NCBI RefSeq assembly: GCF_030689685.1
Contig: NZ_JAUYEY010000005.1
Coordinates: 1 to 50,878, forward strand
Origin: Polaromonas sp.
GTDB lineage: Bacteria > Pseudomonadota > Gammaproteobacteria > Burkholderiales > Burkholderiaceae_C
Direction of reading: 5' to 3'
DNA length: 50,878 bases
Shown here: positions 2,678-50,739 of the stretch, piece after piece
How positions within the stretch are numbered: the stretch's first letter is position 1
Layout of the letters: every line of letters begins with the position of its first letter
Notes under the pieces: generated by a model
The model's input: only the letters and a program-made list of their open reading frames with translations
Database searches by the model: none
Told to the model about the DNA's origin: nothing
Position numbers and translations under genes: made by a program

Positions 2678-2695
2678 AAGAGTAAGAGTAAGAGT
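2678..2695. repeat. Perfect tandem repeat, 3 x AAGAGT
   Basis: Three exact copies of the hexamer AAGAGT lie just after soxX. They are preceded by a short inverted repeat, ACTCAC-GA-GTGAGT, at 2663-2676, and followed at once by a copy of the dispersed repeat family. Nothing is coded here. The cluster of small repeats suggests a site that tolerates insertions. Confidence 0.8.
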
Positions 2696-2750
2696 CATTT
2701 CGGCCTCTAGCCCATAAGCAGCGGGCGTGAACAGCTATCAAATTAATAGT
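2695..2750 (+). repeat. Dispersed ~55-bp repeat, copy 1 (intergenic)
   Basis: Copy of the family that recurs nine times in this window: a GCCC...GGGC segment followed by GCTAT...ATAG. It separates soxX from the soxB remnant. In the frame used by the coding copies it would read S-F-R-P-L-A-H, the same residues as the copy in bamB, before a stop codon. Confidence 0.8.
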
Positions 2751-2799
2751 ACTTTTCATACATGCCTGGCGTGCCGGGCCGGGCAGGATAGGCAGCGCC

Positions 2800-3223
2800 A
2801 TGAATCTGTCTCGCCGCGAGTTTTCCTCCGTGATGGCTGCCGGCTTTCCCATGCACCACAGCGCCAACGCGGCGCAAGCCGCCAACCTGAACGAGGTGCC
2901 GCGCTCGGGCAAATGTGCATTTGCTGCACATGACCGACTGCCATGCGCAGTTGATGCCGTCTTATTTTCGGGAGCCCTCGGTCAATCTGGGCGACATGGT
3001 GCGGGTCGGCGGATTGACCTACACCTGCGAGCCCGGCGCGAAGATGGGTTCACGCATCCAGAACAGGCGTCTGAAGGGCCAGTTGATCGAGGCCAGCAAA
3101 AATGCGGGACCGCTGGCCTGGGGGCTTGTCGAGAGCTACCTGCGGGCCAAAAAAATCATCAAACCGCCCAAACTCAATGTGCTCACCTTGGTCGGCGTGG
3201 CCGGCAATCCCGGCCTGGCCTGA
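2800..3223 (+). pseudogene. soxB: soxB pseudogene: frameshift plus large internal deletion
   Basis: SoxB is the dimanganese thiol-sulfatase that releases sulfate from SoxY. The start (MNLSRREF, Tat-like) is in one frame, but after R-S-G the homology (H-L-L-H-M-T-D-C-H-A-Q) continues in another. Removing one A from the AAA at 2911-2913 would restore G-N-V-H-L-L-H-M. After R-E-P-S-V-N-L-G (about 2990) the sequence jumps to D-M-V-R-V-G-G-L-T-Y-T-C, which belongs near the SoxB C-terminus, and ends G-V-A-G-N-P-G-L-A. About 140 codons remain of a family size near 565. A smaller gap seems present at the position of the usual K-V-A-G-W-A segment. Most metal ligands and the active site are gone. The family assignment is firm; the exact deletion size needs an intact relative. 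Confidence 0.9.
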
Positions 3224-3262
3224 GACACGGCAAGTTGCAGCCTGTTTGACGGCTTCGTGACA

Positions 3263-3294
3263 AAACCCGGACGCCTTTGTGGTGGTCCGGGTTT
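3263..3294 (+). terminator. Terminator-like hairpin after the soxB remnant
   Basis: A perfect 10-bp stem, AAACCCGGAC / GTCCGGGTTT, encloses a 12-nt loop. There is no U-tract beyond the stem, only the three T inside it. It lies between the sox cluster and sucA and probably ended sox transcription or shields sucA from it. Confidence 0.55.
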
Positions 3295-3446
3295 CGTCGT
3301 GGGGGTATTCGGTGGCACAATCGATCCTGTTTCTGAAGGCCCTTCCTTGCCACAGTCGCATCCGCAAATCGGTCAAGCCGTGCTCGCGGAAGGTTAATCA
3401 ACCAGCCACATCTTGTTGTGGTCAGCTAATGTTTCCTCAAGGGAAA

Positions 3447-3452
3447 CGGAGG
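3447..3452 (+). promoter_or_regulatory. Shine-Dalgarno site fixing the sucA start
   Basis: CGGAGG lies 8 nt before the ATG at 3461. It selects this start over the longer reading frame opening at 3413. Confidence 0.75.
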
Positions 3453-3460
3453 TCAGCGTC

Positions 3461-6340: not shown

Positions 6341-6402
6341 GAACCGGCCGCGCGCCCCGGGGCGCGTGCCTGGTCAATCTCCCACATACCGAAAGAATTT
6401 AC

Positions 6403-7680
6403 ATGGCTACCGTAGAAGTCAAAGTCCCCCAGCTATCCGAGTCCGTCGCCGAAGCGACCATGCTGCAGTGGAAGAAAAAAGTTGGCGACTCCATCGCCAT
6501 TGACGAAATCCTGATCGAGATCGAAACCGACAAGGTGGTGCTGGAAGTGCCGGCCCCTGTCGCCGGCGTGTTGTCCGAAATCCTGGTGGCCGATGGCGGC
6601 ACGGTCACTGCCGAGCAATTGATCGCCCGGATCGATACCGAAGGCAAGGTGGCGGCTGCTGCGCCCGCAGCGGCTGCCGCAGCGCCTGCGCCGGCAACGC
6701 CCTCGGCGCCGGTACCTGCCCCGGTCGCAAGTGGCGGCAGCATGGCCGGCGTGGCGATGCCCGCCGCCGCCAAGCTGCTGGCCGATAACCAGCTGGCTTC
6801 TGGCTCGGTGGTCGGCACTGGCAAGGACGGCCGTGTCACCAAGGGCGATGTGCTGGGCGCGGTTGCTGCCGGCACCTCATCCGCTCCTAAATCAATAGCT
6901 GCCAGCGCAATACCAACGGGGGCTCCAACCACTTCTTTGCCTCAAGTGGCGGCGCCAGCGAAGGCCGGTGACCTGGGCGATCGGCCGGAGCAACGCGTGC
7001 CCATGAGCCGTCTGCGCGCACGCATCGCCGAGCGCCTGTTGCAATCGCAATCGACCAACGCCATCCTGACCACCTTCAACGAGGTCAACATGGCGCCGGT
7101 GATGGAGATGCGCAAACGCTTCCAGGAAAAGTTCGAAAAAGAGCACGGCACCAAGATTGGTTTCATGAGCTTTTTCGTCAAGGCGGCCGTGCATGCGCTC
7201 AAGAAATACCCGGTGCTCAATGCCTCGGTGGACGGCAACGACATCGTTTACCACGGTTATTTCGACATCGGCATCGCCGTTGGCTCGCCACGTGGCCTGG
7301 TGGTGCCCATCTTGCGCAATGCGGACCAGATGAGTTTTGCCGACATTGAAAAGAAAATTGCCGAGTACGGCGCCAAGGCGCGTGACGGCAAGCTCGGCAT
7401 CGAAGAGATGACCGGCGGCACCTTCTCGATTTCCAATGGCGGTGTGTTCGGCTCCATGCTGTCCACCCCCATCATCAACCCGCCCCAGTCGGCCATCCTG
7501 GGCGTGCACGCGACCAAGGACCGAGCAGTGGTCGAAAACGGCCAGATCGTGGTGCGCCCGATCAACTACCTGGCCATGAGTTATGACCACCGCATCGTCG
7601 ACGGCCGCGAAGCCGTGCTTGGCCTGGTGGCGATGAAGGAAGCGCTGGAAGATCCGGCCCGTTTGTTGTTTGACATCTAA
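6403..7680 (+). CDS. sucB: 2-oxoglutarate dehydrogenase E2 (dihydrolipoamide succinyltransferase)
   Basis: E2o forms the complex core and transfers the succinyl group to CoA. The 425-residue protein has an N-terminal lipoyl domain with the modified lysine at about 44 (E-T-D-K-V), an Ala/Pro-rich linker, a peripheral-subunit-binding domain around 115-155 (A-A-K-L-L-A-D... D-G-R-V-T-K-G-D-V), a second linker, and the catalytic domain with S-Y-D-H-R-I-V-D-G (His396, Asp400). The second linker, residues 161-178, is formed by an inverted copy of the dispersed ~55-bp repeat and reads K-S-I-A-A-S-A-I-P-T-G-A-P. The linker is flexible, so function should be kept. Confidence 0.97.
   Translation: MATVEVKVPQLSESVAEATMLQWKKKVGDSIAIDEILIEIETDKVVLEVPAPVAGVLSEILVADGGTVTAEQLIARIDTEGKVAAAAPAAAAAAPAPATPSAPVPAPVASGGSMAGVAMPAAAKLLADNQLASGSVVGTGKDGRVTKGDVLGAVAAGTSSAPKSIAASAIPTGAPTTSLPQVAAPAKAGDLGDRPEQRVPMSRLRARIAERLLQSQSTNAILTTFNEVNMAPVMEMRKRFQEKFEKEHGTKIGFMSFFVKAAVHALKKYPVLNASVDGNDIVYHGYFDIGIAVGSPRGLVVPILRNADQMSFADIEKKIAEYGAKARDGKLGIEEMTGGTFSISNGGVFGSMLSTPIINPPQSAILGVHATKDRAVVENGQIVVRPINYLAMSYDHRIVDGREAVLGLVAMKEALEDPARLLFDI
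6884..6935 (-). repeat. Dispersed ~55-bp repeat, copy 2 (inside sucB, inverted)
   Basis: The reverse complement reads GGAGCCCCCGTTGGTATTGC and then GGCAGCTATTGATTTAGGAG, matching the family layout (GCCC segment, then AGCTAT plus an AT-rich tail). It is open in the sucB frame and forms the linker before the catalytic domain. It is the only copy read from the opposite strand, and it is diverged, so it is less certain than the others. Confidence 0.6.
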
Positions 7681-7690
7681 GGAGCCACGC

Positions 7691-9118: not shown

Positions 9119-9138
9119 GCACGCTGGTCAAGGCCACG

Positions 9139-16619: not shown

Positions 16620-18272
16620 ATGAACCCCAACGACAATCCGGCTCCGGCCGTTCCGGCCCCCCAGATTGAAGAATCAAACAGGGTTCCAGCCCATAGCCAG
16701 AAAGCGCAAGAAGCTCCTGATTTGATAGCGGATGAGATCACTGCAAACCAGGCCGAGCCATCCCGTCAGGCCCCGCCATCAGGCGCGCCAGCGAACCGCT
16801 TCGATGACGTAGTGACGGGCCAATTCGACGCCGACGAGGAAGATGTCGCGGTGGAACTGGCCAAACGCGTGCTGTTGCCCCAGCCCGAAACGCCGAAGTT
16901 GCACAAGGTGCTGGCCCAGGCCGGTCTGGGGTCGCGGCTCGAAATGGAGCAACTGATCCTGGAGGGGCGGATTTCGGTCAATGCCGAGCCGGCCCACATC
17001 GGCCAGCGCATCCAGTTCGGTGACACGGTCAAGGTCAATGGCAAGCCGATTCGGGTGCGGATCGACCCGCCACCGCCCCGCGTGATCGCCTACCACAAGC
17101 CTTCCGGCGAGGTGGTGTCGCACGACGACCCGCAGAACCGGCCCACGGTGTTTCGCAAGCTGCCCAAGCTGTTCCAGGGCAAATGGCAGTCGGTCGGGCG
17201 GCTCGACCTGAATACCGAAGGCCTGCTGCTGCTGACCAGCTCCGGCGAGCTGGCCAACAAGCTGATGCACCCGCGTTTCGGCCTGGAGCGCGAGTACGCG
17301 GTTCGGGTCCTGGGTGCCCTGAACAACGAAGAAAAGAAACGCCTGCTCGACGGCGTGCAGCTCGACGACGGGCTGGCCCAGTTCAGCACCATCGAGGCTG
17401 GCGGCGGCGAAGGCGCCAATTGCTGGTACCGGGTGACGATCTCCGAAGGACGCAACCGCGAGGTCCGCCGTATGTTCGAAGCTGTAGGCCACGCCGTCAG
17501 CCGACTGATCCGCATCCGTTATGGCGCCGTGGTGCTGCCGCGCGGCCTCAAGCGGGGTGCTTTTGTGGAGCTTGACGAGCGTGACATCTGGGCACTGACC
17601 AGTGCGGTCGGCCGTTCGGAATCGCGCGCCGACCCGCGCGGACCGAAAACGCCGACTGAAGCCGGAGACGGCGCTGGTGAGTCCCGCCTCGCACGCGGCC
17701 CACGCGGCAACGACAGGTCGCGCGGTGGGCGAGGGCGCACGGATGCCGGAGCGGCCCGACCGCCGGCGCAACCACCTGCATCCGGCCAGGACGATGGCGA
17801 GGAGCCGGGGCCCCATGAGTTCCAGCCGCCAATGCCCCGCAACGACGCGCCGCGTGATGCCAACCGGCGTCGCGGCGGCAAGGGCCGTGGGCCAGGTAAT
17901 GGCAACGGTGGCGCTGCCCCGCGTTCCGGCCCGCCGGGAAATTTCGGTGGCAATCCAGGTCAGGGCCAGCGCCGCCGCGACGACGGTGGTGGTCGCAGCG
18001 ACCGTGCCGACAAAGGGCCCGGCGGTGCGCAGCCCGACCCGATGAAAACTTCCTTCGGCTACATCGGTGCTGAAACCTTTACCCGCCAGCGTCAGACCCA
18101 GACCCAGACCCAGAGCCAGCGGCGCGGCGGGGGCAATGGTCCCGCTGGAGGTGGGGGCGGCGGAGGTGGTGGTACCGGCCAGCGGCGCGGCGGCGCAGGT
18201 GGCGGTGGCGGTGGAAACCGGGGTGGTGGCAATCGGAGCAATGGCGGTGGCAACCGGGGCGGAAACCGCTGA
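16620..18272 (+). CDS. rluB: 23S rRNA pseudouridine synthase RluB with long Gly/Arg-rich tail
   Basis: RluB modifies U2605 of 23S rRNA. The core (about residues 90-320) has an S4 domain, Y-H-K-P-S-G-E-V-V-S and the catalytic G-R-L-D-L-N-T-E-G-L-L-L with Asp196. At 550 residues it is nearly twice a minimal RluB. The N-terminal extension of about 85 residues contains a dispersed-repeat copy (E-S-N-R-V-P-A-H-S). The C-terminal tail of about 220 residues is low complexity, rich in Gly, Arg, Asn and Pro, with a Q-T-Q-T-Q-T stretch and long Gly runs; such RGG-like tails are common in Burkholderiales RluB and probably bind RNA (inference). Confidence 0.93.
   Translation: MNPNDNPAPAVPAPQIEESNRVPAHSQKAQEAPDLIADEITANQAEPSRQAPPSGAPANRFDDVVTGQFDADEEDVAVELAKRVLLPQPETPKLHKVLAQAGLGSRLEMEQLILEGRISVNAEPAHIGQRIQFGDTVKVNGKPIRVRIDPPPPRVIAYHKPSGEVVSHDDPQNRPTVFRKLPKLFQGKWQSVGRLDLNTEGLLLLTSSGELANKLMHPRFGLEREYAVRVLGALNNEEKKRLLDGVQLDDGLAQFSTIEAGGGEGANCWYRVTISEGRNREVRRMFEAVGHAVSRLIRIRYGAVVLPRGLKRGAFVELDERDIWALTSAVGRSESRADPRGPKTPTEAGDGAGESRLARGPRGNDRSRGGRGRTDAGAARPPAQPPASGQDDGEEPGPHEFQPPMPRNDAPRDANRRRGGKGRGPGNGNGGAAPRSGPPGNFGGNPGQGQRRRDDGGGRSDRADKGPGGAQPDPMKTSFGYIGAETFTRQRQTQTQTQSQRRGGGNGPAGGGGGGGGGTGQRRGGAGGGGGGNRGGGNRSNGGGNRGGNR
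16673..16730 (+). repeat. Dispersed ~55-bp repeat, copy 3 (inside rluB, in frame)
   Basis: Reads TCAAACAGGGTTCCAGCCCA then TAGCCAGAAAGCGCAAG and ends TTTGATAGCG. In the rluB frame it gives E-S-N-R-V-P-A-H-S-Q-K-A-Q-E-A-P-D-L-I-A, almost the same peptide as the hrpA copy. The GGGC arm is degraded to AAAGCG. Confidence 0.85.
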
Positions 18273-23152: not shown

Positions 23153-23193
23153 TCCCTCACCCCGGCCCTCTCCCAAAGGGCGAGGGTGAGAAC
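23153..23193. repeat. Palindromic CCCTCACCCC-type repeat, short copy
   Basis: CCCTCACCCCGGCCCTCTCC is followed by CAAAGGGCGAGGGTGAGAAC; the two halves can fold into a GC-rich hairpin. A longer relative lies in frame inside hrpA (45817-45904). This copy is intergenic, between ispG and hisS, and might also weaken read-through, but it has no U-tract. Confidence 0.7.
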
Positions 23194-24624: not shown

Positions 24625-25335
24625 ATGGCAAAACATCTCGATTTGGAAGAACAGGAGCAGCTTGACGAGCTCAAGCACTTCTGGAAGCGATACGGCAACC
24701 TGATCACCTGGGGTTTGATTGCCATCTTCGGCACCTTTGCCGCATGGAACGGTTACCAGTACTGGCAGCGCAGCCAGCAGGCGCAGGCCGCCGTTATGTA
24801 CGACGAGGTCGAGCGCGCTGCCGCGTCGGGTGACGCTGGTCGGCTGGATCGTGCGCTGGCCGACATGAAGGACAAATATGGCAGTACGGCCTTTGCGCAG
24901 CAAGCCGGACTGCTAGCCGCCAAAACCTATTACGACAACGGCAACATCGATGGCGCCAAGGCCGCCTTGACCTGGGTGGCCGACAAAAGTGCCGACGAAG
25001 GTTACCTGGCGATTGCCAAGCTGCGGTTGGCCGGGGTGCTGCTCGAAGCCAAGGCCCATGATGAAGCGCTGCAGCAGTTGTCGGGCACCTTCCCCAAGGA
25101 TTTCACGGCACTGGTGGCAGACCGGCGCGGCGACATATTTGCTGCGCAAGGCAAAAAAATCGAAGCCAAAGTCGAATACGAAAAAGCCTACAAAGGCATG
25201 GACGAGCGCACGGAATACCGGCGCCTGGTCGAGGTCAAACTCAATGCGCTCGGCATCAATCCGTCAGCGACATTGCCCGCCCCTGCAGCAGCCGCTGCAG
25301 CTTCTCCCGCGTCCGCCACGGAGGTCAAGCAGTGA
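24625..25335 (+). CDS. yfgM: YfgM-like membrane-anchored TPR protein
   Basis: YfgM is a single-pass inner-membrane protein thought to link the SecYEG translocon to periplasmic chaperones. The 236-residue protein has a charged cytosolic N-terminus (E-E-Q-E-Q-L-D-E-L-K-H-F-W-K-R), one membrane segment at about 24-45 (I-T-W-G-L-I-A-I-F-G-T-F-A-A-W) and a periplasmic TPR-like region. The ATG at 24625 gives this standard N-terminus; a much longer upstream frame runs inside hisS. It overlaps bamB in GTGA. Confidence 0.9.
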   Translation: MAKHLDLEEQEQLDELKHFWKRYGNLITWGLIAIFGTFAAWNGYQYWQRSQQAQAAVMYDEVERAAASGDAGRLDRALADMKDKYGSTAFAQQAGLLAAKTYYDNGNIDGAKAALTWVADKSADEGYLAIAKLRLAGVLLEAKAHDEALQQLSGTFPKDFTALVADRRGDIFAAQGKKIEAKVEYEKAYKGMDERTEYRRLVEVKLNALGINPSATLPAPAAAAAASPASATEVKQ

Positions 25336-26498
25336 TTCTCAAGTCTTTTAGGCCTCTGGCCCATGCTGGTAAAGCGCCAGCAGCTATTATTTTAATAGCA
25401 ATGTTATCCGGTTGCTCAATGTTCAGCGGATTTTTTGGCGGCTCCGTCAAGAAACCGCAACCAGCCGAATTGCAGCCTGTGGTCGCGCTGGTGCCGGTCA
25501 GGCAAGCCTGGACCGCCCGCATTGGTGAAGTCAGCTTTCCGCTCGAAGTCGAGGTAGCGGGTGACACGGTGGTGCTGGCCAGCGCGGACGGCACGGTGGC
25601 GTCACTCGACGCCCGCACCGGACGCGACCTCTGGCGCACCAACATCGGCACGCCGATTGCCGCCGGTGTCGGCAGCGACGGCAAGCTGGCCGCCGTGGTG
25701 ACGCGCGCTAACGAAGTGGTGGCCCTTGCCAGCGGCCGCGAAGTGTGGCGCCAGAAGCTGGCGGCGCAGGCTTTCAGCTCGCCTTTTGTCGCTGGAGGAC
25801 GGGTTTTTGTGCTGGCCGCTGACCGGTCGGTCAATGCCTTTGACGGCCAAACCGGACGCAAGCTCTGGACCCAGCAACGCCCCAGCGAGCCGTTGGTGCT
25901 GCGTCAGTCTGGTGTCATGCTGGCCGTCGGCGACACGCTGGTGGTGGGCCTGGCCGGCCGGCTGACCGGGCTGAACCCGCTCAATGGCAGCATCCGCTGG
26001 GAAGCACCGATTGCCTCGCCGCGCGGCATCAATGATGTGGAACGGCTGGTGGACCTCGTCGGCACGGTCAACCGCAACGGCAACACCGTGTGCGCCCGAG
26101 CCTTCCAGGCCAGCGTCGGCTGCGTCGATGCCGCGCGCGGCACTTTGCTCTGGAGCAAATCCGCCAACGGCGCTCAGGGCGTGGACGGTGACGACAGCCT
26201 GGTGTTTGGCACCGAGGCCGACGGCAAGGTGCTGGCCTGGCGCCGCAGCGATGGCGAAAGTGCGTGGAGCACGGACCGCCTGCGCTACCGCAACTTGACC
26301 TCACCGGTGGTGGTGGGACGCTCCATCGCCATTGGCGATTCAGCCGGTTTTCTTCACCTGCTGTCGCGCGCTGACGGCTCCGTGATGAACCGCCTGAGCA
26401 CCGATGGCTCGCCAGTGGCGGCTTCGCCGGTGCTGGCAGCCAATACCTTGATTACCGTGAGCCGATCAGGCGCCGTGTTCGGTTTCGCCCCTGAATGA
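25332..26498 (+). CDS. bamB: BamB, outer-membrane assembly lipoprotein, with repeat-derived signal peptide
   Basis: BamB is the beta-propeller lipoprotein of the BAM complex. The 388-residue product has PQQ-like propeller blades with repeated A-x-D-G-x-V-x-x-L-D-x-x-T-G-R motifs. The start is a GTG overlapping the yfgM stop. The signal peptide (residues 1-28, lipobox M-L-S-G-C, Cys28) is largely encoded by a dispersed-repeat copy: S-F-R-P-L-A-H comes from its left half and the hydrophobic A-A-I-I-L-I-A from its GCTATTATTTTAATAGC hairpin. Without the repeat there would be no normal signal, so the element appears adopted. Confidence 0.93.
   Translation: MILKSFRPLAHAGKAPAAIILIAMLSGCSMFSGFFGGSVKKPQPAELQPVVALVPVRQAWTARIGEVSFPLEVEVAGDTVVLASADGTVASLDARTGRDLWRTNIGTPIAAGVGSDGKLAAVVTRANEVVALASGREVWRQKLAAQAFSSPFVAGGRVFVLAADRSVNAFDGQTGRKLWTQQRPSEPLVLRQSGVMLAVGDTLVVGLAGRLTGLNPLNGSIRWEAPIASPRGINDVERLVDLVGTVNRNGNTVCARAFQASVGCVDAARGTLLWSKSANGAQGVDGDDSLVFGTEADGKVLAWRRSDGESAWSTDRLRYRNLTSPVVVGRSIAIGDSAGFLHLLSRADGSVMNRLSTDGSPVAASPVLAANTLITVSRSGAVFGFAPE
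25344..25400 (+). repeat. Dispersed ~55-bp repeat, copy 4 (forms the bamB signal peptide)
   Basis: Reads TCTTTTAGGCCTCTGGCCCA, then GCAGCTATTATTTTAATAGC. The right half is a perfect 7-bp stem, GCTATTA/TAATAGC, with a 3-nt loop. It has the same orientation and codon phase as the rluB and hrpA copies. Confidence 0.85.
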
Positions 26499-38279: not shown

Positions 38280-38983
38280 TTGATGAGCTTCTTCAATTCC
38301 GGCCAGACGTTGGCCAGCATTCGGGCCTGCGCCTGCTCATTGGGGTGGATGCGATCAGCCTGAAAGTTGCCGACGGCGTCATCCACGTCGGCAATACCCT
38401 TGAGGAAGAAGGGCACCAACGCGGCTTTCTCAGCCCTGGCGACTTTGGTGAACAGCCCGGAGAAGGTCGCGCCGTAAGCACCGCCATAGTTGGGCGGCAC
38501 CTGCATGCCCAGCAGCAGCACTTTGGCGCCGGCTTTTTTTGCGGCTTTCGCCATGGCCAGCAGGTTGTTTTCGGTCATGTCCAGCGGCAAGCCGCGCAGG
38601 GCGTCGTTGCCGCCGAGTTCGATCACCACGATGCCGGGTTTGTGCTGGGCCAGCAGCGCCGGCAGGCGCGAACGCCCGCCCGAGGTGGTGTCGCCGCTGA
38701 TGCTGGCGTTGACCACACGGATATTTTTCTTTTCGGCGGCGAGCTGTTTTTCCAGCAGCGGCACCCAGCCGGTGCCGCGTTTGAGGCCGTATTCAGCGCT
38801 CAGCGAATCACCGACGATCAGCACGGTGTCGCGAGCGGCGGCAGCGGTCTGGGCCTGCGCCAGCAGCGGCGCGGCGGCGAAACAGGCGAACAGCAGCGCG
38901 CTCAAAGGTTTTACCAGCCGGGCTGCCGCAGCGCGGGCAAGCTTGGTAAAGTCTGATCTCAAGTTTTCTGACAAGGCTGACAT
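38276..38983 (-). CDS. tesA: TesA-like arylesterase/lysophospholipase (GDSL family)
   Basis: This is a 235-residue secreted SGNH hydrolase. Signal peptide: a basic N-terminus, then L-S-A-L-L-F-A-C-F-A-A-A-P-L-L-A-Q-A. Block I is G-D-S-L-S-A-E-Y-G with the nucleophile Ser60, block III is G-G-N-D, and block V is D-R-I-H-P-N-E with catalytic Asp and His. TesA-like enzymes cleave thioesters, aryl esters and lysophospholipids in the periplasm. I place the start at the ATG at 38983; the longer upstream frame would run into ybbA. This ATG and the ybbA ATG share one CATG. Confidence 0.92.
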   Translation of the reverse strand: MSALSENLRSDFTKLARAAAARLVKPLSALLFACFAAAPLLAQAQTAAAARDTVLIVGDSLSAEYGLKRGTGWVPLLEKQLAAEKKNIRVVNASISGDTTSGGRSRLPALLAQHKPGIVVIELGGNDALRGLPLDMTENNLLAMAKAAKKAGAKVLLLGMQVPPNYGGAYGATFSGLFTKVARAEKAALVPFFLKGIADVDDAVGNFQADRIHPNEQAQARMLANVWPELKKLIK

Positions 38984-38984
38984 G
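38981..38984. promoter_or_regulatory. Shared CATG holding both divergent start codons
   Basis: The palindrome CATG contains the ATG of the esterase on the minus strand (38983-38981) and the ATG of the ABC ATPase on the plus strand (38982-38984). If both starts are used, there is no intergenic DNA and each promoter lies inside the other gene's coding sequence. Confidence 0.55.
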
Positions 38985-39704
38985 TTTGAACCTGCGGTTA
39001 ATGTGCTGAACGACGCTGCTCCGGCATCCACGAGCGCTTCGATTATTTCCGTGGAGCACGTATGCAAGAGTGTGAGCGACTCGACCGGCACACTGACCAT
39101 TTTGCGCGATATTCATTTCGCACTCTCGGCCAGGGAGACTGCCGCGATTGTCGGCGCCTCCGGTTCCGGCAAAAGCACCTTGCTGTCCATCATCGCCGGG
39201 CTGGACACACCCACCCAGGGCACAGTGCATCTGGCCGGCCAGGACCTGTTTGCGCTCAGTGAGGACGACCGCGCCGCCTTGCGCGCGCAGAAGGTCGGGT
39301 TTGTGTTCCAAAGCTTCCAGCTCATGGGCAATCTGAACGCGCTGGAAAACGTCATGCTGCCGCTGGAACTGTCAGGCGCAAAAAATGCACGCACCCAGGC
39401 CACCGACATGCTCAAACGTGTTGGCCTCGGCGAACGTCTCGGCCACTACCCCAAGGTGCTGTCGGGCGGTGAGCAGCAACGGGTGGCGCTGGCGCGGGCC
39501 TTTGTGGTGCAGCCGGCGCTGCTGCTGGCTGACGAGCCGACCGGCAGCCTGGACTTTGCGACCGGCGAAACCGTCATGGCGCTGATGTTCGAACTGAACC
39601 AGGAGCTCGGGACCACCCTGGTGCTGGTCACGCACGACCGCGGCATCGCGGCGCGCTGCGAGCGCCGGATCACGCTGGAAGCCGGTCGCGTGGTGGCCAA
39701 TTAA
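38982..39704 (+). CDS. ybbA: YbbA-like ABC transporter ATP-binding protein
   Basis: This 240-residue ATPase is of the LolD/MacB-like group. It has Walker A G-A-S-G-S-G-K-S-T, the Q-loop V-F-Q-S-F-Q-L-M, the signature L-S-G-G-E-Q-Q-R and Walker B L-L-L-A-D-E-P-T-G-S-L-D, so it should hydrolyse ATP. In E. coli ybbA is divergent from tesA and is followed by the permease ybbP. Here no permease follows; the next gene is a DsbA-like protein, so its membrane partner must be elsewhere. A GTG at 39050 is an alternative start. Confidence 0.9.
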   Translation: MFEPAVNVLNDAAPASTSASIISVEHVCKSVSDSTGTLTILRDIHFALSARETAAIVGASGSGKSTLLSIIAGLDTPTQGTVHLAGQDLFALSEDDRAALRAQKVGFVFQSFQLMGNLNALENVMLPLELSGAKNARTQATDMLKRVGLGERLGHYPKVLSGGEQQRVALARAFVVQPALLLADEPTGSLDFATGETVMALMFELNQELGTTLVLVTHDRGIAARCERRITLEAGRVVAN

Positions 39705-44123: not shown

Positions 44124-44183
44124 GTCGGCATCGCGTCCCGACTTTCGGAGCGCTTGTCTGCACCGATAATTGAGGGCTTATCC

Positions 44184-44189: not shown

Positions 44190-44197
44190 TCCACCCT

Positions 44198-47100
44198 TTG
44201 CCGCCTTTGCCCGTGTCCGCCCCCTTGCAGATTGATTTTCCCGAGTCCTTGCCCGTCTCGAGCAAACGAGCGGAGATCACCGCTGCCATGCAGGCGCACC
44301 AGGTGCTCATCGTCTGTGGTGAAACCGGTTCCGGCAAAACCACGCAACTGCCCAAAATCGCGCTGGCCATGGGCCGGGGCAAGCTCAACTACCCGGCGGG
44401 CCAGGGCAAACTGATAGGCCACACCCAGCCGCGCCGGATTGCCGCCTCCAGCGTTGCCAAGCGGATTGCGGAGGAGCTGAAAACACCGCTGGGCGACGTG
44501 GTCGGCTACAAGGTGCGTTTCCAGGACCGGCTGAGCCGCGACGCCTCGGTCAAGCTGATGACCGACGGCATTTTGCTGGCCGAGACGCAGACCGATCCGC
44601 AGCTCTTGGCCTACGACACCATCATCATCGACGAGGCGCACGAGCGCAGCCTGAACATCGACTTCCTGCTCGGCTACCTGCGCCAGTTGCTGCCGCGCCG
44701 GCCCGACCTCAAAGTCGTGATCACCTCGGCGACGATTGATGCGCAGCGGTTTGCGGACTATTTTGCCTCGGCCGCCCCGGCGCCGGGCCGCCCCAAGCCG
44801 GCCGACGCCCACTCGGGGGGGCCAAGGATTCCGGCGCCGGTGATCATGGTGTCCGGCCGCATGTTTCCGGTCGAGCAGCGTTACCGCCCGTATGAAGAGT
44901 CGCGTGATTACGACCTCAACGACGCGATTGCCGACGGCGTGGACGAACTCTGGCGCAACCCGCACAGCGCCGGTGACATCCTGATCTTTTTGCCCGGCGA
45001 GCGTGAAATCCGCGAGGCGGCAGACCACCTGCGCAAACACCTGGCGCACCAGCCACTGTTTCGCAACGCTGAGGTGCTGCCGCTGTTTGCGCGCCTGTCC
45101 CAGGCCGAACAGGACCGCATTTTTGACGGCCACACCGGCCGGCGCATCGTGCTGGCCACCAACGTGGCCGAAACCTCGCTGACGGTGCCGGGCATTCGTT
45201 ATGTGATTGATGCGGGGACGGCGCGCGTCAAGCGTTACAGCTTCAGGAACAAAGTCGAACAGTTGATGGTCGAGCCGGTGTCGCAGGCAGCCGCCAACCA
45301 GCGCGCCGGCCGCTGCGGGCGCGTCGCCGACGGCATTTGCATCCGCCTGTACGACGAGCCCGATTTTTTGGGCCGGCCGCGTTTTACCGACCCGGAAATT
45401 CTGCGCAGCTCACTGGCTGCGGTGATTCTGCGCATGAAGGCGCTGCACCTGGGCACCATCGAAAGCTTTGCTTTCATCGAGCCGCCCCAGGGCCGGGCGA
45501 TTGCCGACGGCTACCAGTTGCTGGCCGAACTGGGCGCGGTGGACGACGACAACGAACTCACGCCGGTGGGCCGCAGCCTGGCCAAGCTGCCACTGGACCC
45601 GCGTGTGGGCCGCATGATTCTGGAGGCCAGGGACCGGCAGGCACTGGACGAGGTGCTGGTGATTGCCAGCGCGCTCAGCGTGCAGGATGTGCGCGACCGG
45701 CCCATGGACAAACAGGCGCAGGCGGACCAGGCGCATGCCAAGTTTGACGATGAGAAAAGCGAGTTCAGCGGCTACCTGAAGCTGTGGAAATGGCTGAGTG
45801 ATGTGCGGGGCGGCCGGCCCTCACCCCAACCCTCTCTTGGGGTGAGAGGGGGCCAATCCCCGTCTCTACTCCCTCTCCCTCTGGGAGAGGGCAGGGGTGA
45901 GGGCTCTGCGGCCCACAAAATTTCCAACCGCCAGTACGAAAACCTCTTGAGGGAAAACTACATCAACATCCGCCGGGTGCGCGAATGGCGCGACATTCAC
46001 TCGCAGTTGCACAGCGTGGTGGGTGAACAGAAATGGGTCCTGAATAACAAGCCGGCCAGTTACGAGCAACTGCATTTGTCCATGCTGTGCGGCCTGCTGG
46101 GCAACCTCGGCATCAAGAATGAAGAAGAGGACTGGTACCTGGGCGCGCGCGGCATCAAGTTCTACCGGCACCCGGGCGCCAAACTCAGCAAAAAACCGGG
46201 ACGCTGGATCGTGACGGCAGAGCTGGTGGAAACCACGCGCCTGTTCGGCCGCGGCATCGCCAACATCGAGCCGCAGTGGGTCGAGCAGGTCGCCGGCCAT
46301 TTGCTGAAAAAGCAGTTGCTCGATCCACATTGGGAGAAGAAGGCGGCTCAGGTGACTGCACTGGAGCGCGCCACGCTGTATGGCTTGGTCATCTACAACG
46401 GCCGGCGCGTCAATTTTGGCCGCGTCGATCCGGTGACGGCGCGCGAGATATTCATCCGCGAAGCGCTGGTGGCCGGCAACTGGGATACCAAACTGCCGTT
46501 TCTGCAGGCCAACCTCAGGCTGATCCAGCAGGTGCAGGACCTGGAGCATAAGGCGAGGCGTCAGGACGTGCTGGTGGATGAAGAGCTGATCTACGCCTTT
46601 TATGACCAGCAGTTGCCGGCCGACATCTGCACCGGCGCCGGCTGCGAGCATTGGTATAAAGACGAGGTCAAAAAGCAGCCCAAGCTGTTGTTGCTCACGC
46701 GCGAGGAACTGATGCGGCACGAAGCGGCGGGCATCACGACGCAGGCCTTTCCAAAAACCCTGAGGCTGGGGGGCGTCGATTGTCTGGCGACCTATCTGCA
46801 CCAACCGGGCGATGCGAAAGACGGCGTGACGGTGGAGGTGCCGCTGTTTGCCCTGAACCAGGTTAACGAGGAGCGCTGCGAGTGGCTGGTGCCCGGCATG
46901 CTCAAGGACAAGATCCAGGCACTGATCAAGACCCTGCACCAGCGGCCGCGCTCGCGCCTGGTGCCGCTGCCGGAGACAGCCGAGCGCATGGCGGCCGAGC
47001 TGCTGCAGCCGGAAAAGTTTGGCGCAAATTCGCTGACCGATGCGGTGCTCAAGCTGGTGCGCGACGCGACCTCGCTGGACATCAAGCGCAACGACATGAA

Positions 47101-48259
47101 GCTGGAGATGCTGCCGCCGCATCTGTTCATGAACTTCCGTGTGGTCGACGAACATGGCCGCCAGCTCGGCACCGGCCGCAACCTGGGCGCGCTCAAGGGC
47201 GAACTCGGTTCACAGGCGCGCGGGGCGTTTCAGGCGCTGGCGGGGCTCAAAACTCGGCCGGCACCCGAATCTGCACAGGATTCAGAGTCAAATCGACCTC
47301 CAGCCCATAGCGGGCGGGCGCAAGCAGCTCCTGAAAACATAGCAAACCAGAAACCCCAGCCGGCTCGCACACCCGAGCGCTACACCAGCTGGAGCTTTGG
47401 CGAGCTGCCGGAACTGATGGAAATCAGCAAGGGCAAACAGACCCTGATCGGGTTCCCGGCACTGATCGACCTCGGTGGTGAAGGTGGCGGGGCCGTGACC
47501 ATCGAGGTCTTCGACGAGCCCGACGTGGCGGCCGCCAAACACCGCGCCGGCCTGCGCCGCCTGTTTTCGCTGCAGATGAAAGAAGCGCTGAAGTACCTCG
47601 AGAAAAACCTGCCAGACCTGCAGAAAATGGCCACGGCCTACATGCAGGTCGGCCGCGCCGCCGACAACTCGGGTGGCGGCACGCTGGAAGAGTTGCGCGA
47701 GCAGATCATCGAGGTGGCGCTGGACCGCGCCTTCCTGCAGGAGCCGCTGCCGACCCACGAAGCCGACTTCAAAAAGCGCATTGACGACGGGCGAGGACGC
47801 TTGACCCTAATCGCCAGCGAGGTCGCGCGCTTGGCCGCCGCCATCCTGACCGAGTTTGCGGCGGCCCAGCGCAAGATCAAGGACACAAAAAACGCTGCCG
47901 AAGCCTCTCTGGATGCCGCCCAGCAATTGCAGCGTTTGGTGCCCAAGCGTTTCCTGACGGCCACGCCGTATGCGCAACTGCAGCACTTTCCGCGTTACCT
48001 CAAGGCGATCACGCTGAGGCTGGAGAAGTGGCGGGCCGACCCGGCCCGCGACGCGGCGCGCCTGGCCGAGCTGCGGCCGCAGGAGCAGCGCTACTGGCGA
48101 CTGGTGGCCGAGCGCAAGGGCGCGCTTGACACGCGTCTGCAGGAGCTGCGCTGGCTGATCGAGGAGCTGCGCGTGAGCTTTTTTGCGCAGGAGCTGCGCA
48201 CGCCTCAACCGGTCAGCATCAAGCGGCTGGACAAGGCCTGGCTGCAACTGGTGAACTGA
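44198..48259 (+). CDS. hrpA: ATP-dependent RNA helicase HrpA, with three in-frame repeat insertions
   Basis: HrpA is a DEAH-box helicase that rescues stalled ribosomes. The 1353-residue protein has G-E-T-G-S-G-K-T-T-Q-L-P (about 46), the D-E-A-H box and S-A-T motif, N-V-A-E-T-S-L-T and Q-R-A-G-R-C-G-R, then the long DUF3418-type C-terminus. The start is TTG with AGGAAG 8 nt upstream. Extra segments from three repeat types sit at about residues 195-213 (P-G-R-P-K-P-A-D-A-H-S-G-G-P), 540-569 (P-S-P-Q-P-S-L-G-V-R-G-G) and 1031-1049 (S-N-R-P-P-A-H-S-G-R-A-Q), each between conserved helicase blocks. E. coli HrpA, which lacks them, has 1300 residues. Confidence 0.94.
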   Translation: MPPLPVSAPLQIDFPESLPVSSKRAEITAAMQAHQVLIVCGETGSGKTTQLPKIALAMGRGKLNYPAGQGKLIGHTQPRRIAASSVAKRIAEELKTPLGDVVGYKVRFQDRLSRDASVKLMTDGILLAETQTDPQLLAYDTIIIDEAHERSLNIDFLLGYLRQLLPRRPDLKVVITSATIDAQRFADYFASAAPAPGRPKPADAHSGGPRIPAPVIMVSGRMFPVEQRYRPYEESRDYDLNDAIADGVDELWRNPHSAGDILIFLPGEREIREAADHLRKHLAHQPLFRNAEVLPLFARLSQAEQDRIFDGHTGRRIVLATNVAETSLTVPGIRYVIDAGTARVKRYSFRNKVEQLMVEPVSQAAANQRAGRCGRVADGICIRLYDEPDFLGRPRFTDPEILRSSLAAVILRMKALHLGTIESFAFIEPPQGRAIADGYQLLAELGAVDDDNELTPVGRSLAKLPLDPRVGRMILEARDRQALDEVLVIASALSVQDVRDRPMDKQAQADQAHAKFDDEKSEFSGYLKLWKWLSDVRGGRPSPQPSLGVRGGQSPSLLPLPLGEGRGEGSAAHKISNRQYENLLRENYINIRRVREWRDIHSQLHSVVGEQKWVLNNKPASYEQLHLSMLCGLLGNLGIKNEEEDWYLGARGIKFYRHPGAKLSKKPGRWIVTAELVETTRLFGRGIANIEPQWVEQVAGHLLKKQLLDPHWEKKAAQVTALERATLYGLVIYNGRRVNFGRVDPVTAREIFIREALVAGNWDTKLPFLQANLRLIQQVQDLEHKARRQDVLVDEELIYAFYDQQLPADICTGAGCEHWYKDEVKKQPKLLLLTREELMRHEAAGITTQAFPKTLRLGGVDCLATYLHQPGDAKDGVTVEVPLFALNQVNEERCEWLVPGMLKDKIQALIKTLHQRPRSRLVPLPETAERMAAELLQPEKFGANSLTDAVLKLVRDATSLDIKRNDMKLEMLPPHLFMNFRVVDEHGRQLGTGRNLGALKGELGSQARGAFQALAGLKTRPAPESAQDSESNRPPAHSGRAQAAPENIANQKPQPARTPERYTSWSFGELPELMEISKGKQTLIGFPALIDLGGEGGGAVTIEVFDEPDVAAAKHRAGLRRLFSLQMKEALKYLEKNLPDLQKMATAYMQVGRAADNSGGGTLEELREQIIEVALDRAFLQEPLPTHEADFKKRIDDGRGRLTLIASEVARLAAAILTEFAAAQRKIKDTKNAAEASLDAAQQLQRLVPKRFLTATPYAQLQHFPRYLKAITLRLEKWRADPARDAARLAELRPQEQRYWRLVAERKGALDTRLQELRWLIEELRVSFFAQELRTPQPVSIKRLDKAWLQLVN
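44776..44838 (-). repeat. GC-rich Comamonadaceae repeat fragment inside hrpA, in frame
   Basis: GGCCGCCCCAAGCCGGCCGA followed by CGCCCACTCGGGGGGGCC is the inverse of the element at 18811-18900 (there CTTGGGGCGGCCC). It encodes P-G-R-P-K-P-A-D-A-H-S-G-G-P between the strand ending Y-F-A-S and V-S-G-R-M-F-P-V-E, where E. coli HrpA has only a few residues. Confidence 0.7.
45817..45904. repeat. Palindromic CCCTCACCCC repeat inside hrpA, in frame
   Basis: An 88-bp element with inverted ends, GCCCTCACCCC...AACCCTCTC and GAGAGGG...AGGGGTGAGGGC, with a second CCCTCTCCCTCTGGGAGAGGG hairpin inside. It is open in the hrpA frame and gives a Pro/Gly/Leu-rich insert of about 30 residues. A short relative lies at 23153-23193. 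Confidence 0.85.
47288..47344 (+). repeat. Dispersed ~55-bp repeat, copy 8 (inside hrpA, in frame)
   Basis: TCAAATCGACCTCCAGCCCA is followed by GCGGGCGGGCGCAAGCAGCT and CCTGAAAACATAGCA. In the hrpA frame it encodes S-N-R-P-P-A-H-S-G-R-A-Q-A-A-P-E-N-I-A, almost identical to the rluB copy. It lies in a linker after A-G-L-K-T-R-P. Confidence 0.9.
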
Positions 48260-48287
48260 TCTTCGCCATCAACCGCTTTCAAGCACC

Positions 48288-50282
48288 ATGAAGCCCGCGC
48301 CCGTGAACCCTGCTGCTGCCAGCGACACCGCCTCCCGACTGGCCCAGGCCCTGGGCTTGCATCAGGAGGGCAAGCTGGCCGAAGCGGCTGCCGGTTACAG
48401 CGAGGTGCTGGCGTCAAACCCGGCACAGGCTGACGCCTTGCACCTGCTCGGCGTCATTGAGCTGCAGACCAACAAACCGGTCCAGGCGATGGACTGGATC
48501 AACCGGGCCATCGCCTCCGACGGCCGCCACCCGGTTTTCCACAACAACCTCGGTATTGCGCTCGAAAGTATGAACAGGCTGGAGGACGCTGCGGCGAGTT
48601 ACGGGCAGGCGCTGACGCTGAATGCAGCGTTTGCAGAGGCCCACTACAACCGGGGCAATGTACTGGACAAGCTGATCCAGCCGCTGGCCGCGCTGGCCAG
48701 CCTCGATGTGGCTATTCAATGCCGCCCGGTCTATGTCGAGGCCCATTTCGCGCGGGGCAGCGTGCTGCGAAAGCTTGGACAGGGCGAGGCGGCGGTCGAG
48801 AGTTACGGCCGCGCGCTTGCGATCAAACCAGACTATGCCGAAGCCTATTTCAACCGTGCCATAGCCTTGCGCTCACTGAACCGCACGCAGGACGCCGTGG
48901 ACGACTATCGCCGCGCGATCCAGTTCAGGCCGGATTTCCCGACGGCTTACAACAACTGCGGCAACGCGTTGAAAAAACTGGCGCAGTTTCCCGCCGCGCT
49001 GGAAGCCTTTGACCAGGCCATCCGGCTTGATCCGTCCTTTGCCGACGCCTACAACAACCGTGGCAACGTGCTGCGGGCGCTGAAGAACATCCCGGCCGCC
49101 ATTGAAAGTTTCAGGAAGGTGATTGGGCTCGATCCTGCCTATCCCGAGGCGTACAACAATCTGGGCAATGCGCTGATGGAGCAACGCAAGGTCCAGCAGG
49201 CGATTGACAACTACGACCAGGCCATTGCGCTGAAGGCCGACTACGCCAAGCCGTACAGCAACCGTGGCAATGCGCTGCGCGACATCGGACGTCTGGACGC
49301 GGCGATGGCCCGCTACGAGCAGGCCCTGGCGCTGAAGCCCGACTATGCCGACGCGCAGTGGAACCACAGCCTGTGCCTGCTGTTGGCCGGCGACTTTGTC
49401 CAGGGCTGGAAAAAATACGAATGGCGCTGGCAAAACGCGGTGCTCCAGAGGGCAGCACGTGGCTTCACGCAGCCGCTGTGGCTGGGTGAACAGCCGCTGG
49501 CCGGCAAGACCATCCTGCTGCATGCGGAACAGGGGCTGGGCGATACCCTGCAGTTTTGCCGCTATGTGCCGCTGGTGCGTGACTTGGGGGCTCGTGTCAT
49601 CCTTGAGGTGCAGGCGCCGCTTCAGCATTTGCTGGCCGGGCTGGACGGCGCGGCCAGTGTGGTGGTGAAAGGGCGGCCCCTGCCGGCGTTTGATCTTCAT
49701 TGCCCCCTGCTCAGCCTGCCGCTGGCTTTTGGTACCGTGCCGGACGATGTTCCTGCCGGTATGCCCTACCTGGCCGCGTCACCCGCCAAAAAAGAGCAAT
49801 GGCAGCGCCGCCTGGGGTCACCGGTGGGGATGCGCGTCGGCCTGGTCTGGAGCGGCAATGCCGACCATACCAACGACCGCAACCGCAGCATTTCACTGGC
49901 TGAGCTGGTCGGGCACGTGCCGGCAGGCGTGGAGTACATCAGCCTGCAGAAAGAGGTTCGCGTTGAAGACAGCGCCACCCTGGCAGCCAACCCGCAGATT
50001 CGCTGCTTCGATCAGGAGATCGAGGACTTCACCGACACGGCGGCGCTGTGCGAGCTGGTGGACGTGGTGATCAGCGTGGACACCAGCGTGGCGCATCTGG
50101 CCGGCGCTCTGGGCCGCCCGGTCTGGATCGCCTTGCCCTTCAATCCCGACTGGCGCTGGATGCTGGAGCGGGACGACAGCCCGTGGTACCCGTCTGCCAG
50201 ACTTTACAGACAACAGACCGCCGGCGACTGGCACGGTGTGGCGCGTCGCATCGCGGCCGACCTGGCAGCGCGTCTGCGTTGA
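48288..50282 (+). CDS. TPR-repeat protein with C-terminal glycosyltransferase domain
   Basis: The 664-residue protein has about ten 34-residue TPR units (residues about 15-375), many with the pattern A-x-x-N-x-G-N-x-L and A-I-x-L-x-P-x-x-A-x-A-Y. The C-terminal 250 residues look like a GT-B glycosyltransferase of the heptosyltransferase/O-GlcNAc-like group: H-A-E-Q-G-L-G-D-T-L-Q-F-C-R-Y, G-L-V-W-S-G-N, N-D-R-N-R-S-I-S-L and V-D-T-S-V-A-H-L-A-G-A-L-G. In related proteins this pairing is used for protein or flagellin glycosylation, but the acceptor here is unknown. A terminator follows. Confidence 0.88.
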   Translation: MKPAPVNPAAASDTASRLAQALGLHQEGKLAEAAAGYSEVLASNPAQADALHLLGVIELQTNKPVQAMDWINRAIASDGRHPVFHNNLGIALESMNRLEDAAASYGQALTLNAAFAEAHYNRGNVLDKLIQPLAALASLDVAIQCRPVYVEAHFARGSVLRKLGQGEAAVESYGRALAIKPDYAEAYFNRAIALRSLNRTQDAVDDYRRAIQFRPDFPTAYNNCGNALKKLAQFPAALEAFDQAIRLDPSFADAYNNRGNVLRALKNIPAAIESFRKVIGLDPAYPEAYNNLGNALMEQRKVQQAIDNYDQAIALKADYAKPYSNRGNALRDIGRLDAAMARYEQALALKPDYADAQWNHSLCLLLAGDFVQGWKKYEWRWQNAVLQRAARGFTQPLWLGEQPLAGKTILLHAEQGLGDTLQFCRYVPLVRDLGARVILEVQAPLQHLLAGLDGAASVVVKGRPLPAFDLHCPLLSLPLAFGTVPDDVPAGMPYLAASPAKKEQWQRRLGSPVGMRVGLVWSGNADHTNDRNRSISLAELVGHVPAGVEYISLQKEVRVEDSATLAANPQIRCFDQEIEDFTDTAALCELVDVVISVDTSVAHLAGALGRPVWIALPFNPDWRWMLERDDSPWYPSARLYRQQTAGDWHGVARRIAADLAARLR

Positions 50283-50298
50283 TTGCAGTCTGACAGGC

Positions 50299-50334
50299 AA
50301 AAAAAACCAGGCACAGCGGCCGGGTCTTTTTTTT
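50299..50334. terminator. Symmetric bidirectional intrinsic terminator
   Basis: Eight A, then ACCAGGC-ACAGCG-GCCGGGT (one mismatch), then C and eight T. It can end the TPR-glycosyltransferase on the plus strand and the small DUF3309 gene on the minus strand, which stops 23 bp away. Confidence 0.85.
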
Positions 50335-50356
50335 GCAATGAAGCAGATCCTCTGTT

Positions 50357-50515
50357 TTAGATTCTGCCCATCAGCAGAAGCACGATCAGAATGATCACGA
50401 CCAGACCGAGACCACCGCTTGGGCCGTAACCCCAGCTACGGCTATGGCCCCAGGTAGGCAATGCGCCGACCAGAATCAGGATGAGGACGATGAGCAGGAT
50501 AAGCGAAATCGACAT
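50357..50515 (-). CDS. DUF3309-type small membrane protein
   Basis: A 52-residue protein with two hydrophobic stretches (S-L-I-L-L-I-V-L-I-L-I-L-V-G-A-L-P and L-V-V-I-I-L-I-V-L-L-L-M-G) joined by W-G-H-S-R-S-W-G-Y-G-P-S-G-G, the layout of DUF3309. The function is unknown; members are often induced under stress. AAGGAG stands 6 nt before the ATG on the minus strand. Confidence 0.88.
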   Translation of the reverse strand: MSISLILLIVLILILVGALPTWGHSRSWGYGPSGGLGLVVIILIVLLLMGRI

Positions 50516-50681
50516 GAGGAACTCCTTGTTTTGTGTGTAGTGATTCTTGCCCGCCGATGTGTTTACACCGGCAGGAAGGCACGCTGCCAGATCGTCAGGG
50601 AGTTCCTACAGTTGGGGGCAGGAAGTAGCCCATGCGCGCACCGGCGACAGGCAAACACGCCGGACTGCTTCAGAAATATGA

Positions 50682-50739
50682 ACTAAAAAGGCCACCAGCC
50701 CATAGCAGATATGGTCGATCAGCTATTAATTTCATAGCG
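50682..50739 (+). repeat. Dispersed ~55-bp repeat, copy 9 (intergenic)
   Basis: ACTAAAAAGGCCACCAGCCC, then a diverged middle (ATAGCAGATATGGTCG) and ATCAGCTATTAATTTCATAG. It ends 1 bp from the stop codon of the partial minus-strand gene, so it would form the beginning of that gene's 3' untranslated region. The family frame reads K-R-P-P-A-H-S-R-Y-G-R-S-A-I-N-F-I-A without a stop. Confidence 0.85.

Follow-up and report, generated by a model that had tools for sequence, protein, structure and literature searches.

Nine short stretches that share one order of sequence blocks lie dispersed along a 50,878-nt window of Polaromonas sp. DNA (the whole of the stretch analysed here), which raises the question of what kind of element they are, how it came to be copied and whether it still does anything. 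The first-pass annotation had described a unit of about 55 bp in nine copies, four of them inside genes, with two recurring hairpins and no attached transposase, and had proposed looking for further copies, target duplications, empty sites and compensatory changes.

Copy number and unit of the repeat

Searching the whole genome with a gapped 42-base pattern (at most 2 mismatches) returned 536 matches, 270 on one strand and 266 on the other, compared with 2 in a reversed control, and the 15-mer CGGCCTCCAGCCCAT (at most 2 mismatches) occurred 226 times, compared with 19 in the reversed control. A position-weight matrix detected 134 copies scoring at least 25 bits in 966 kb of genome G000, of which 103 formed its training set; the reversed sequence gave none. 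Applied to the relative G017, which played no part in training, the same matrix found 139 copies in 1.04 Mb and again none in reverse. The scores in G000 were nearly devoid of a low tail, with 137 copies at 12 bits or more and 120 at 40 bits or more; the corresponding numbers in G017 were 148 and 115. The element is thus dispersed in many copies, as first described. The opposite possibility, a chance likeness of short words, would suit the sucB match, most of which is ordinary linker sequence, but the counts of 536 against 2 and 134 against 0 already refute it, and we give it practically no weight. All nine places in the window matched a covariance model with E values of 3.6e-22 to 2.3e-12, a result that proves little by itself because the model was trained on these same copies; a covariance-model search matched all 150 scored candidates, out of 2,793.

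The column profile places sharp ends at model positions -4 and 64, so that the unit is about 69 bp rather than 55 bp. Copies are near-fixed in length, length differences being rare, and range from 35 to 66% GC. Their information content is 64 bits over 69–71 columns, and three arm-N7-arm blocks can be discerned by eye. Lone 3′ halves (11 + 11) outnumbered lone 5′ halves (3 + 2) at 14 bits, and the 5′ part was missing from all 12 partial matches of one search; detection of partial copies is biased towards the 3′ half because that half is the more informative (35 versus 28 bits). The spacing of copies had a coefficient of variation of 0.84 (n = 78), not clearly more even than random. No excess of target duplications over shuffles was found in 235 copies scoring at least 40 bits, and the column profile contained no clear terminal inverted repeats. 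We found no name for the 69-bp repeat in the literature, where the matches listed for its sequence words were unrelated by title, and the window copies had no Rfam match at gathering thresholds. The nine places in the window are as follows.

2686..2754, + strand: full copy, intergenic (predicted genes end at 2652 and start at 2915), 68.7 bits
6879..6905 (approximate), - strand: 3′ palindromic module only, in-frame within the sucB interdomain linker, 43.8 bits over the full model
16665..16733, + strand: full copy in an RluB-type pseudouridine synthase gene (16620-18272), within its N-terminal extension, reading ESNRVPAHSQKAQEAPDLIAD, 65.2 bits
25335..25403, + strand: full copy at the bamB 5′ end, 60.8 bits
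34750..34818, + strand: full copy in the spacer that separates purA from a phosphoribosyltransferase gene, its end 2 bases short of the phosphoribosyltransferase ATG, 63.6 bits
37071..37139, + strand: full copy, intergenic, with predicted genes converging on it from both sides, 70.6 bits
39699..39767, + strand: full copy across the stop codon of a gene (38943-39704) for an ABC-transporter ATPase, 50.1 bits
47279..47347, + strand: full copy within the hrpA linker, reading ESNRPPAHSGRAQAAPENIAN, 74.4 bits
50674..50742, + strand: full copy, intergenic, 58.0 bits

Eight of the nine are therefore full members, and the inverted one at 6884 retains the 3′ module only; what else that match covers is the usual SucB linker (IPTGAP...), which relatives lacking the module have too. 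The four in-gene copies initially counted correspond to HrpA (identified by TIGR01967; its orthologous site is filled in G017), the RluB-type protein (276.8 bits with the RluB model, cut-off 290), SucB in part, and BamB if GTG 25332 is the start. With translation from this putative GTG, most of the BamB signal peptide (SFRPLAHAGKAPAAIILIA, followed by LSGC) would come from the copy, and TIGR03300, the BamB model, begins its alignment at residue 15 of the reading; the gene finder had put the start after the copy, at 25419. The spacer between purA and the phosphoribosyltransferase gene is occupied in some relatives as well. As noted at first, no transposase was seen at the window copies.

Copies in genes, palindromes and orthologous sites

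Among 117 sampled copies scoring at least 25 bits, 36 lay inside predicted genes although 89% of the sequence is coding, which indicates avoidance of genes; the other 81 were not wholly within a predicted gene, a count that includes overlaps with gene ends. Sense copies in genes shared one frame in 16 of 19 cases, which bears out the view that an open family frame makes the element tolerable in genes. Comparison of seven in-gene copies with PDB homologs gave net length differences between about -4 and +12 residues, and in no case the +23 of a plain insertion. In trmJ the length is polymorphic: the 6 loci (of 30) that lack the element have 16–20 residues and 17 that carry it have 28–40, for a net gain of about 8–24 residues. 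Two other genes were uninformative as insertion tests, hrpA because 27 of its 29 measured linkers span 31–50 residues with or without the element, and MurI because 30 aligned relatives (of 120 listed) have a similar segment. If the copies are mobile in origin, the BamB signal peptide and segments of HrpA, TrmJ, MurI, GatA and PepN would illustrate the conversion of mobile scrap into protein sequence.

The two hairpins are conserved in sequence as palindromes, and to that extent the initial description stands; the compensatory changes that would mark RNA pairing were absent from 273 copies. In 228 of these a C.C mismatch takes the place of the middle pair of hairpin 1, pair 48-56 of hairpin 2 is Watson–Crick in a fraction of 0.48 compared with 0.57 after shuffling, and RNAalifold retained 3 pairs, none with a change on both sides, and we rejected the RNA-structure reading on these grounds. 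We also set aside an inversion of the hairpin 2 loop: GCTCC..ATAGC and GCTAT..GGAGC both occur, whereas CC together with GG never does (0 of 273 copies, with about 2 expected, a weak deficit). An RNA element such as a riboregulator, processing site or terminator would fit the many copies near stop codons or between convergent genes and those that end at the expected ribosome-binding site of the next gene, but given the mixed orientation relative to genes, the lack of covariation and the lack of an Rfam match for the window copies we consider it very unlikely.

Between orthologous sites, the columns of the repeat changed at different rates. In 20 ortholog pairs, columns carrying at least 0.8 bits differed in 109 of 740 cells and columns below 0.3 bits in 96 of 200; for the intergenic pairs alone the values were 59 of 296 (20%) and 54 of 80 (68%). 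Because key bases differ far less than others between two related species, the copies likely still do something, and the column conservation would be a sign of purifying constraint, which a bound protein might impose. No clean empty site was found between G000 and G017 (23 and 21 sites); at the 3 of 23 G000 sites without a G017 match, distances were 171, 508 and 91, with 182, 408 and 90 expected. Insertion, as first envisaged, is thus backed by the length polymorphism of trmJ and finds no counterpart in clean empty sites between these two genomes.

Distribution and association with a Y1 transposase gene

About 90 of 397 family genomes carry at least 50 copies (a hand count), and most sampled relatives have few or none. 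The distribution is patchy, one genus holding species with hundreds of copies and others with 2–10, and the repeat shows genus dialects. An order-level covariance-model search, run with strict filters and a ceiling on the candidates scored, found the repeat in at least 4 of 150 genomes, G000 included. A single genome can contain as many as 821 pattern matches, which may place the repeat among the commonest small repeats in betaproteobacteria, and the coexistence of species with about 300 copies and sister species with 2 offers a direct way to test for the mobiliser and for any benefit. The exact pattern also matched 10 IMG/VR contigs, all scoring 27–69 bits; a PHROGs test of the neighbouring open reading frames on six of them placed two copies in or beside packaging genes, one between terminase genes (L403) and one within the tail of a terminase gene adjoined by a portal gene (L406). 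The latter copy spans residues ~632–656, and terminase homologs in named phages, which align to ~642, mostly stop short of it; no PDB homolog of this terminase was found. Searching named plasmids and phages by blastn with one copy each gave no match, a weak test at such divergence.

In 7 of 16 carrier loci, a copy lies at the stop codon of a single-copy gene for a Y1 protein (PF01797; 77.7 bits with NF047646, REP-associated tyrosine transposase, just below the cut-off of 80), on the same strand as the gene; among neighbouring genes the figure was 3 of 100, relatedness being ignored; the background of genes with a copy at the stop was 31 of 792 in G000 and 35 of 716 in G017. In G000 and G017 the 3′ end of the Y1 gene has no copy, and the copies at this gene may go back to one inherited event. 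Inverted copies on both sides of the gene were seen in 2 of the 16 loci (G213 and G309), the further copy lying 580–697 bases upstream, and upstream copies also occur in G435 and G350; the flank search used the G000-trained matrix and may miss other dialects. Of 36 carriers, 34 had a PF01797 match (E 0.001), as did 19 of 25 non-carriers, a tally that counts any Y1 protein, a few of them below the curated cut-off; the two carriers without a match are G304 and G452, the latter a one-contig genome. By eye, the Y1 gene is flanked by an inverted sequence of its own, GGGGTCAGA/TCTGACCCC, which differs from the repeat and shows no dispersal in the sampled sequence of G000 and G017.

Origin of the repeat and comparison with known systems

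We suggest that the repeat is likely an old, REP-like, non-autonomous element whose copies are now constrained; its mobiliser and function we infer. The more specific reading, a non-autonomous mobile repeat copied in trans by the Y1 protein and with key bases less variable between orthologs, is tentative, at somewhat below an even chance. Here a single-copy Y1 protein of the REP type, acting on single strands, would move the repeat in trans, would recognise the AGCTAT-N7-ATAGC palindrome near its 3′ end and would insert it by joining single-stranded DNA without duplicating the target. Target duplication is not expected in Y1 transposition, so its lack of excess supports the Y1 reading. Also in favour are the copy number, the sharp ends, the patchy distribution, the copies beside phage packaging genes, those at the Y1 gene, the trmJ polymorphism and the column conservation. 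Against it count the two carriers without PF01797 and the 19 non-carriers with it, the possible single origin of the copies at the Y1 gene and their absence there in G000 and G017, the different inverted sequence around that gene, the lack of clean empty sites, the small length changes within genes, the missing hairpin covariation and, weakly, the negative blastn results. Copies in genes would survive mainly where the stop-free frame (E-S-N-R-P-P-A-H-x-G-R-A-x-A-A-x-x-x-I-A) or its reverse reads through a variable linker or tail.

Alternatively, the copies could be a chromosomal signal, palindromic protein-binding (or uptake-type) sites that were once spread by copying and are kept by selection or drive at about 540 places. 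The column-specific conservation, clearest among intergenic copies, argues for this, as do the missing clean empty sites, the equal strands, the near absence of low scores in G000, the genus dialects, the near length-neutral occupancy of some conserved enzymes, the three arm-N7-arm blocks seen by eye and, weakly, the missing CC + GG combination. Against it stand the copies beside phage packaging genes, the spacing, the scarcity in most sampled relatives and the information content: 64 bits far exceeds the ~14 bits that would be enough to pick out 540 sites among 8.2 Mb of strands, and origin by point mutation alone is therefore implausible; we rejected an uptake signal of that origin for this reason. 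We regard the signal reading as unlikely but worth keeping in view. Another mobiliser, for instance a transposon family since lost, or illegitimate recombination in short patches (SPDIR), in which single-stranded fragments overwrite resident sequence, would accommodate the imperfect Y1 association, the in-gene copies that fall short of a full 23-residue insertion relative to distant homologs and the excess of lone 3′ halves, itself subject to the detection bias; the net gain in trmJ argues against it, and it appears improbable. A further and rather doubtful step would be that a repeat of mobile origin became a genome-wide address label, with about 540 putative multi-palindromic binding sites, roughly one per 7 kb, each constrained, across a large bacterial family and even in the frames of core enzymes and beside phage packaging genes.

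Several known systems share features with the repeat. DNA uptake sequences lie on both strands, prefer certain coding frames, form lineage dialects and come and go between species; the repeat resembles them in strand use, preferred frame, dialects and patchy presence, but its 64 bits over 69–71 columns are too much for point mutation and it arose by copying. Rickettsia palindromic elements are short repeats found in-frame within protein genes and between genes, as here, and differ in host and size. Bacterial MITEs are likewise short, non-autonomous and numerous; those of the DDE type differ from the repeat, which lacks target duplication (235 copies) and clear terminal inverted repeats. The repeat also lacks the compensatory changes expected of a structured RNA element (none in 273 copies). 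BRE, as far as its published description goes, is dispersed in Bordetella, Polaromonas, Delftia and others, at times within genes like the present repeat, and that description (~90 bp with GC averaging 69% in Bordetella, no more than 29 copies per genome and occasional tandem arrangement; PMC3110155) sets it apart from a dispersed 69-bp repeat of 35–66% GC with about 540 copies; a Bordetella MAG locus (L184) did not match the repeat. REP sequences and REPINs with their RAYT (TnpA-REP) proteins, in the relevant passages of the sources, are short, palindromic, present in hundreds of copies, mostly intergenic and free of target duplication (PMC2817692, PMC6006769), all as here. The same passages confine qualifying RAYTs to gammaproteobacteria (PMC2817692) and record no REP with Y1 subclasses 2.1 and 2.3 (PMC6006769). 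The present repeat differs in being 69 bp rather than 20–40 bp and asymmetric, in its incomplete association with Y1, flanked by inverted copies in only 2 of 16 loci, and in the column profile, which by eye holds no conserved GT(A/G)G tetranucleotide of the REP type at the hairpin foot. A further likeness to REP/RAYT systems is the copy that follows the single-copy Y1 gene at its 3′ end in 7 of the 16 carrier loci; the arrangement of inverted copies around the gene in G213 and G309 recalls RAYT units.

Copy number and anatomy of the element

A covariance model built from the nine window copies, aligned with nine others from the same genome, recovered 9/9 copies in the window, all of which belong to its training set. 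Because the window copies trained the model, the genome outside the window is the fair test of the element. Over the whole genome, a 15-mer allowing up to two mismatches gave 226 matches versus 19 for the reversed pattern, and a gapped 42-mer gave 536 versus 2, bearing out the dispersed element proposed in the first-pass annotation. A position-weight matrix found 134 copies of at least 25 bits in 966 kb versus 0 in the reversed sequence, which extrapolates to approximately 570 copies in 4.11 Mb. The host genus is probably Polaromonas: the best relative of the window purA belongs to that genus (91%), as do many of the named relatives of MurI.

The unit is longer than the approximately 55 bp originally assigned to it: information across 103 gapless copies rises at position −4 and drops after 64, giving 69 bp. 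It carries 64 bits over 71 modelled columns, the strongest being AAAT (7–10), AGCCC (19–23), GCG (35–37), AGCTAT (43–48) and TAGC (57–60), with a mean column identity among aligned copies of about 69%. Length is nearly fixed, with 4 of the 107 full-model hits deviating from exactly 66 bases; a further 12 hits are missing the 5′ part. In the source genome G000 and the sampled relative G017 together, 22 lone 3′ halves were found against 5 lone 5′ halves (14 bits; at most one per control), although the 3′ half is the more informative. We take the AGCTAT-N7-ATAGC end to be the core of the element. Compensatory change was seen in neither of the two hairpins that had been suggested, and no target duplication was found at the copies.

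At gathering thresholds, Rfam matched the window once only, with a SucA RNA motif (RF01070, 59.9 bits) at 3356–3458, before sucA. A second dispersed repeat, which is GC-rich, occupies 23154–23186 and 45804–45917 (CCCTCACCCC...CCTCTCCC / GGGAGAGGG), and a piece of it was seen by eye in the same hrpA linker of another species (locus L216, hrpA of genome G022).

Placement relative to genes

Using our own simple codon-based gene finder, we placed 36 of 117 copies (at least 25 bits) inside genes, although predicted coding makes up 89% of the sequence. Among the genes with copies are, in the window, bamB, hrpA and an rluB-type gene and, elsewhere in the genome, murI, gatA, pepN, trmJ, xdhA and a benzoate-CoA ligase gene. 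When all 119 hits were classified, 19 lay between convergent and 8 between divergent genes; 14/119 overlap the stop codon of an oppositely running gene. Tolerance of in-frame copies within genes, as first proposed, was upheld by the single frame that 16 of the 19 sense copies use; antisense copies use two (10/17 and 6/17). Outside genes, 37 of 81 copies have this sense frame open, so the frame preference mirrors which copies allow read-through.

Compared with distant PDB homologs (best alignment each), seven in-gene copies differ in net length by between about −4 and +12 residues rather than +23, and the host segment may therefore be partly lost or overwritten. Among 30 trmJ loci, 6 have 16–20 residues and no element, 17 have 28–40 residues and the element, and 7 are intermediate; the trmJ tree does not separate gain from loss. 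The BamB signal peptide (window 25332–25403, on our reading from a GTG upstream of the gene finder's start) appears to derive for the most part from codons of the element, which end in IILIA ahead of the LSGC lipobox; the relatives compared have unrelated sequence in this region.

Age, constraint and distribution

Across the hrpA stretch, the source genome shares 87% identity with G017. Of 131 source copies tested against the G017 sample, 23 had syntenic flanks and 20/23 sites were filled; reciprocally, 143 copies gave 21 syntenic sites, 21/21 filled. Most of these copies thus predate the split. Among 20 ortholog pairs, which had to score in both genomes and are therefore biased towards conserved copies (only 3/23 sites were lost so), columns of at least 0.8 bits differ in 109/740 cells versus 96/200 for columns below 0.3 bits, and the flanks differ in about a third of cells. 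Intergenic pairs alone gave 59/296 for strong versus 54/80 for weak columns. Rhodoferax and a few others likewise have a copy in the purA spacer; over 80 purA loci the model gave only 11 matches, confined to 5 loci. By eye, four purA spacers (L112, L121, L125 and L127) retain no more than part of the 3′ module, such as AGCTATCAAAAGAGGAGC in L121; it directly precedes the next ATG and may act there as the ribosome-binding site.

At least one pattern match occurs in 336 of 397 family genomes, mostly at background level, the reversed control giving up to 42 matches on a single strand in one genome. About 90 genomes, in some 33 of 126 genera, have at least 50 matches with both strands summed (hand count). 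Genomes rich in the element (carriers) and genomes with few or no copies (non-carriers) occur within one genus (for example, 300 versus 2, 453 versus 10 and 378 versus 3 matches), and genus dialects were seen by eye, with AGCGCTT-N7-AAGCGCT in some and AGCCC...GCG in others. All 10 IMG/VR contigs with the exact pattern carry copies of 27–69 bits. PHROGs comparison of ORFs from 6 of the 10, free phage or prophage, placed packaging genes at the copy in two and an anti-restriction-like gene in one; three had no known-function match.

A candidate mobiliser and comparison with known repeats

The sole mobiliser candidate tested was the REP-type Y1 transposase gene (PF01797), matched in 34/36 carriers and 19/25 non-carriers, the matches of a few genomes including IS200-like copies. 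Carrier G193 (20 matches) has numerous IS200-like Y1 genes, some intact and some broken. A same-strand copy lies at the Y1 stop codon in 7/16 carrier loci versus 3/100 neighbouring genes (Fisher 2e-5 without regard to relatedness). These copies, at −2 to −21 bases, come from seven genera and could be explained by shared ancestry. An additional inverted copy lies upstream of the gene in G213 and G309, and one lies at its start in G435 and G350. By eye, a partial copy runs into TTTGATGTGTCCCC at the Y1 3′ end in carriers G188, G291 and G435, and TTTGATGTGTCCCC is retained there in non-carriers too. The Y1 genes of the source genome and G017 have no element copy. In several carriers and non-carriers, the Y1 flanks (L316–L335) show by eye an inverted sequence of their own that resembles TTGGGGTCAGATTCCAATTA and its complement; it is not dispersed in the source and G017 samples.

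Y1 enzymes cut and join single-stranded DNA without target duplication. We suggest that the Y1 enzyme would copy the element in trans, and that copies would persist where they land in a stop-free register within linkers and tails. A second cause is then required for the constraint on old copies; our guess is a bound protein.

No published name for the element was found within the literature searched, and six genus names searched for are absent from the main text of a tagged-repeat survey (PMC3733652). BRE, as described in the portion of PMC3110155 consulted, differs in length, GC and number and is set apart on that description. The consulted part of an HUH survey (PMC6006769) reports Y1 subclasses without known repeats, and that of Nunvar 2010 (PMC2817692) reports qualifying RAYTs in gammaproteobacteria only. 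The conserved REP tag was not seen by eye in the column profile and two-sided flanking of the Y1 gene was mostly not observed, and for these reasons we do not class the element as a REP; by behaviour, REP/RAYT is nevertheless its nearest kind.
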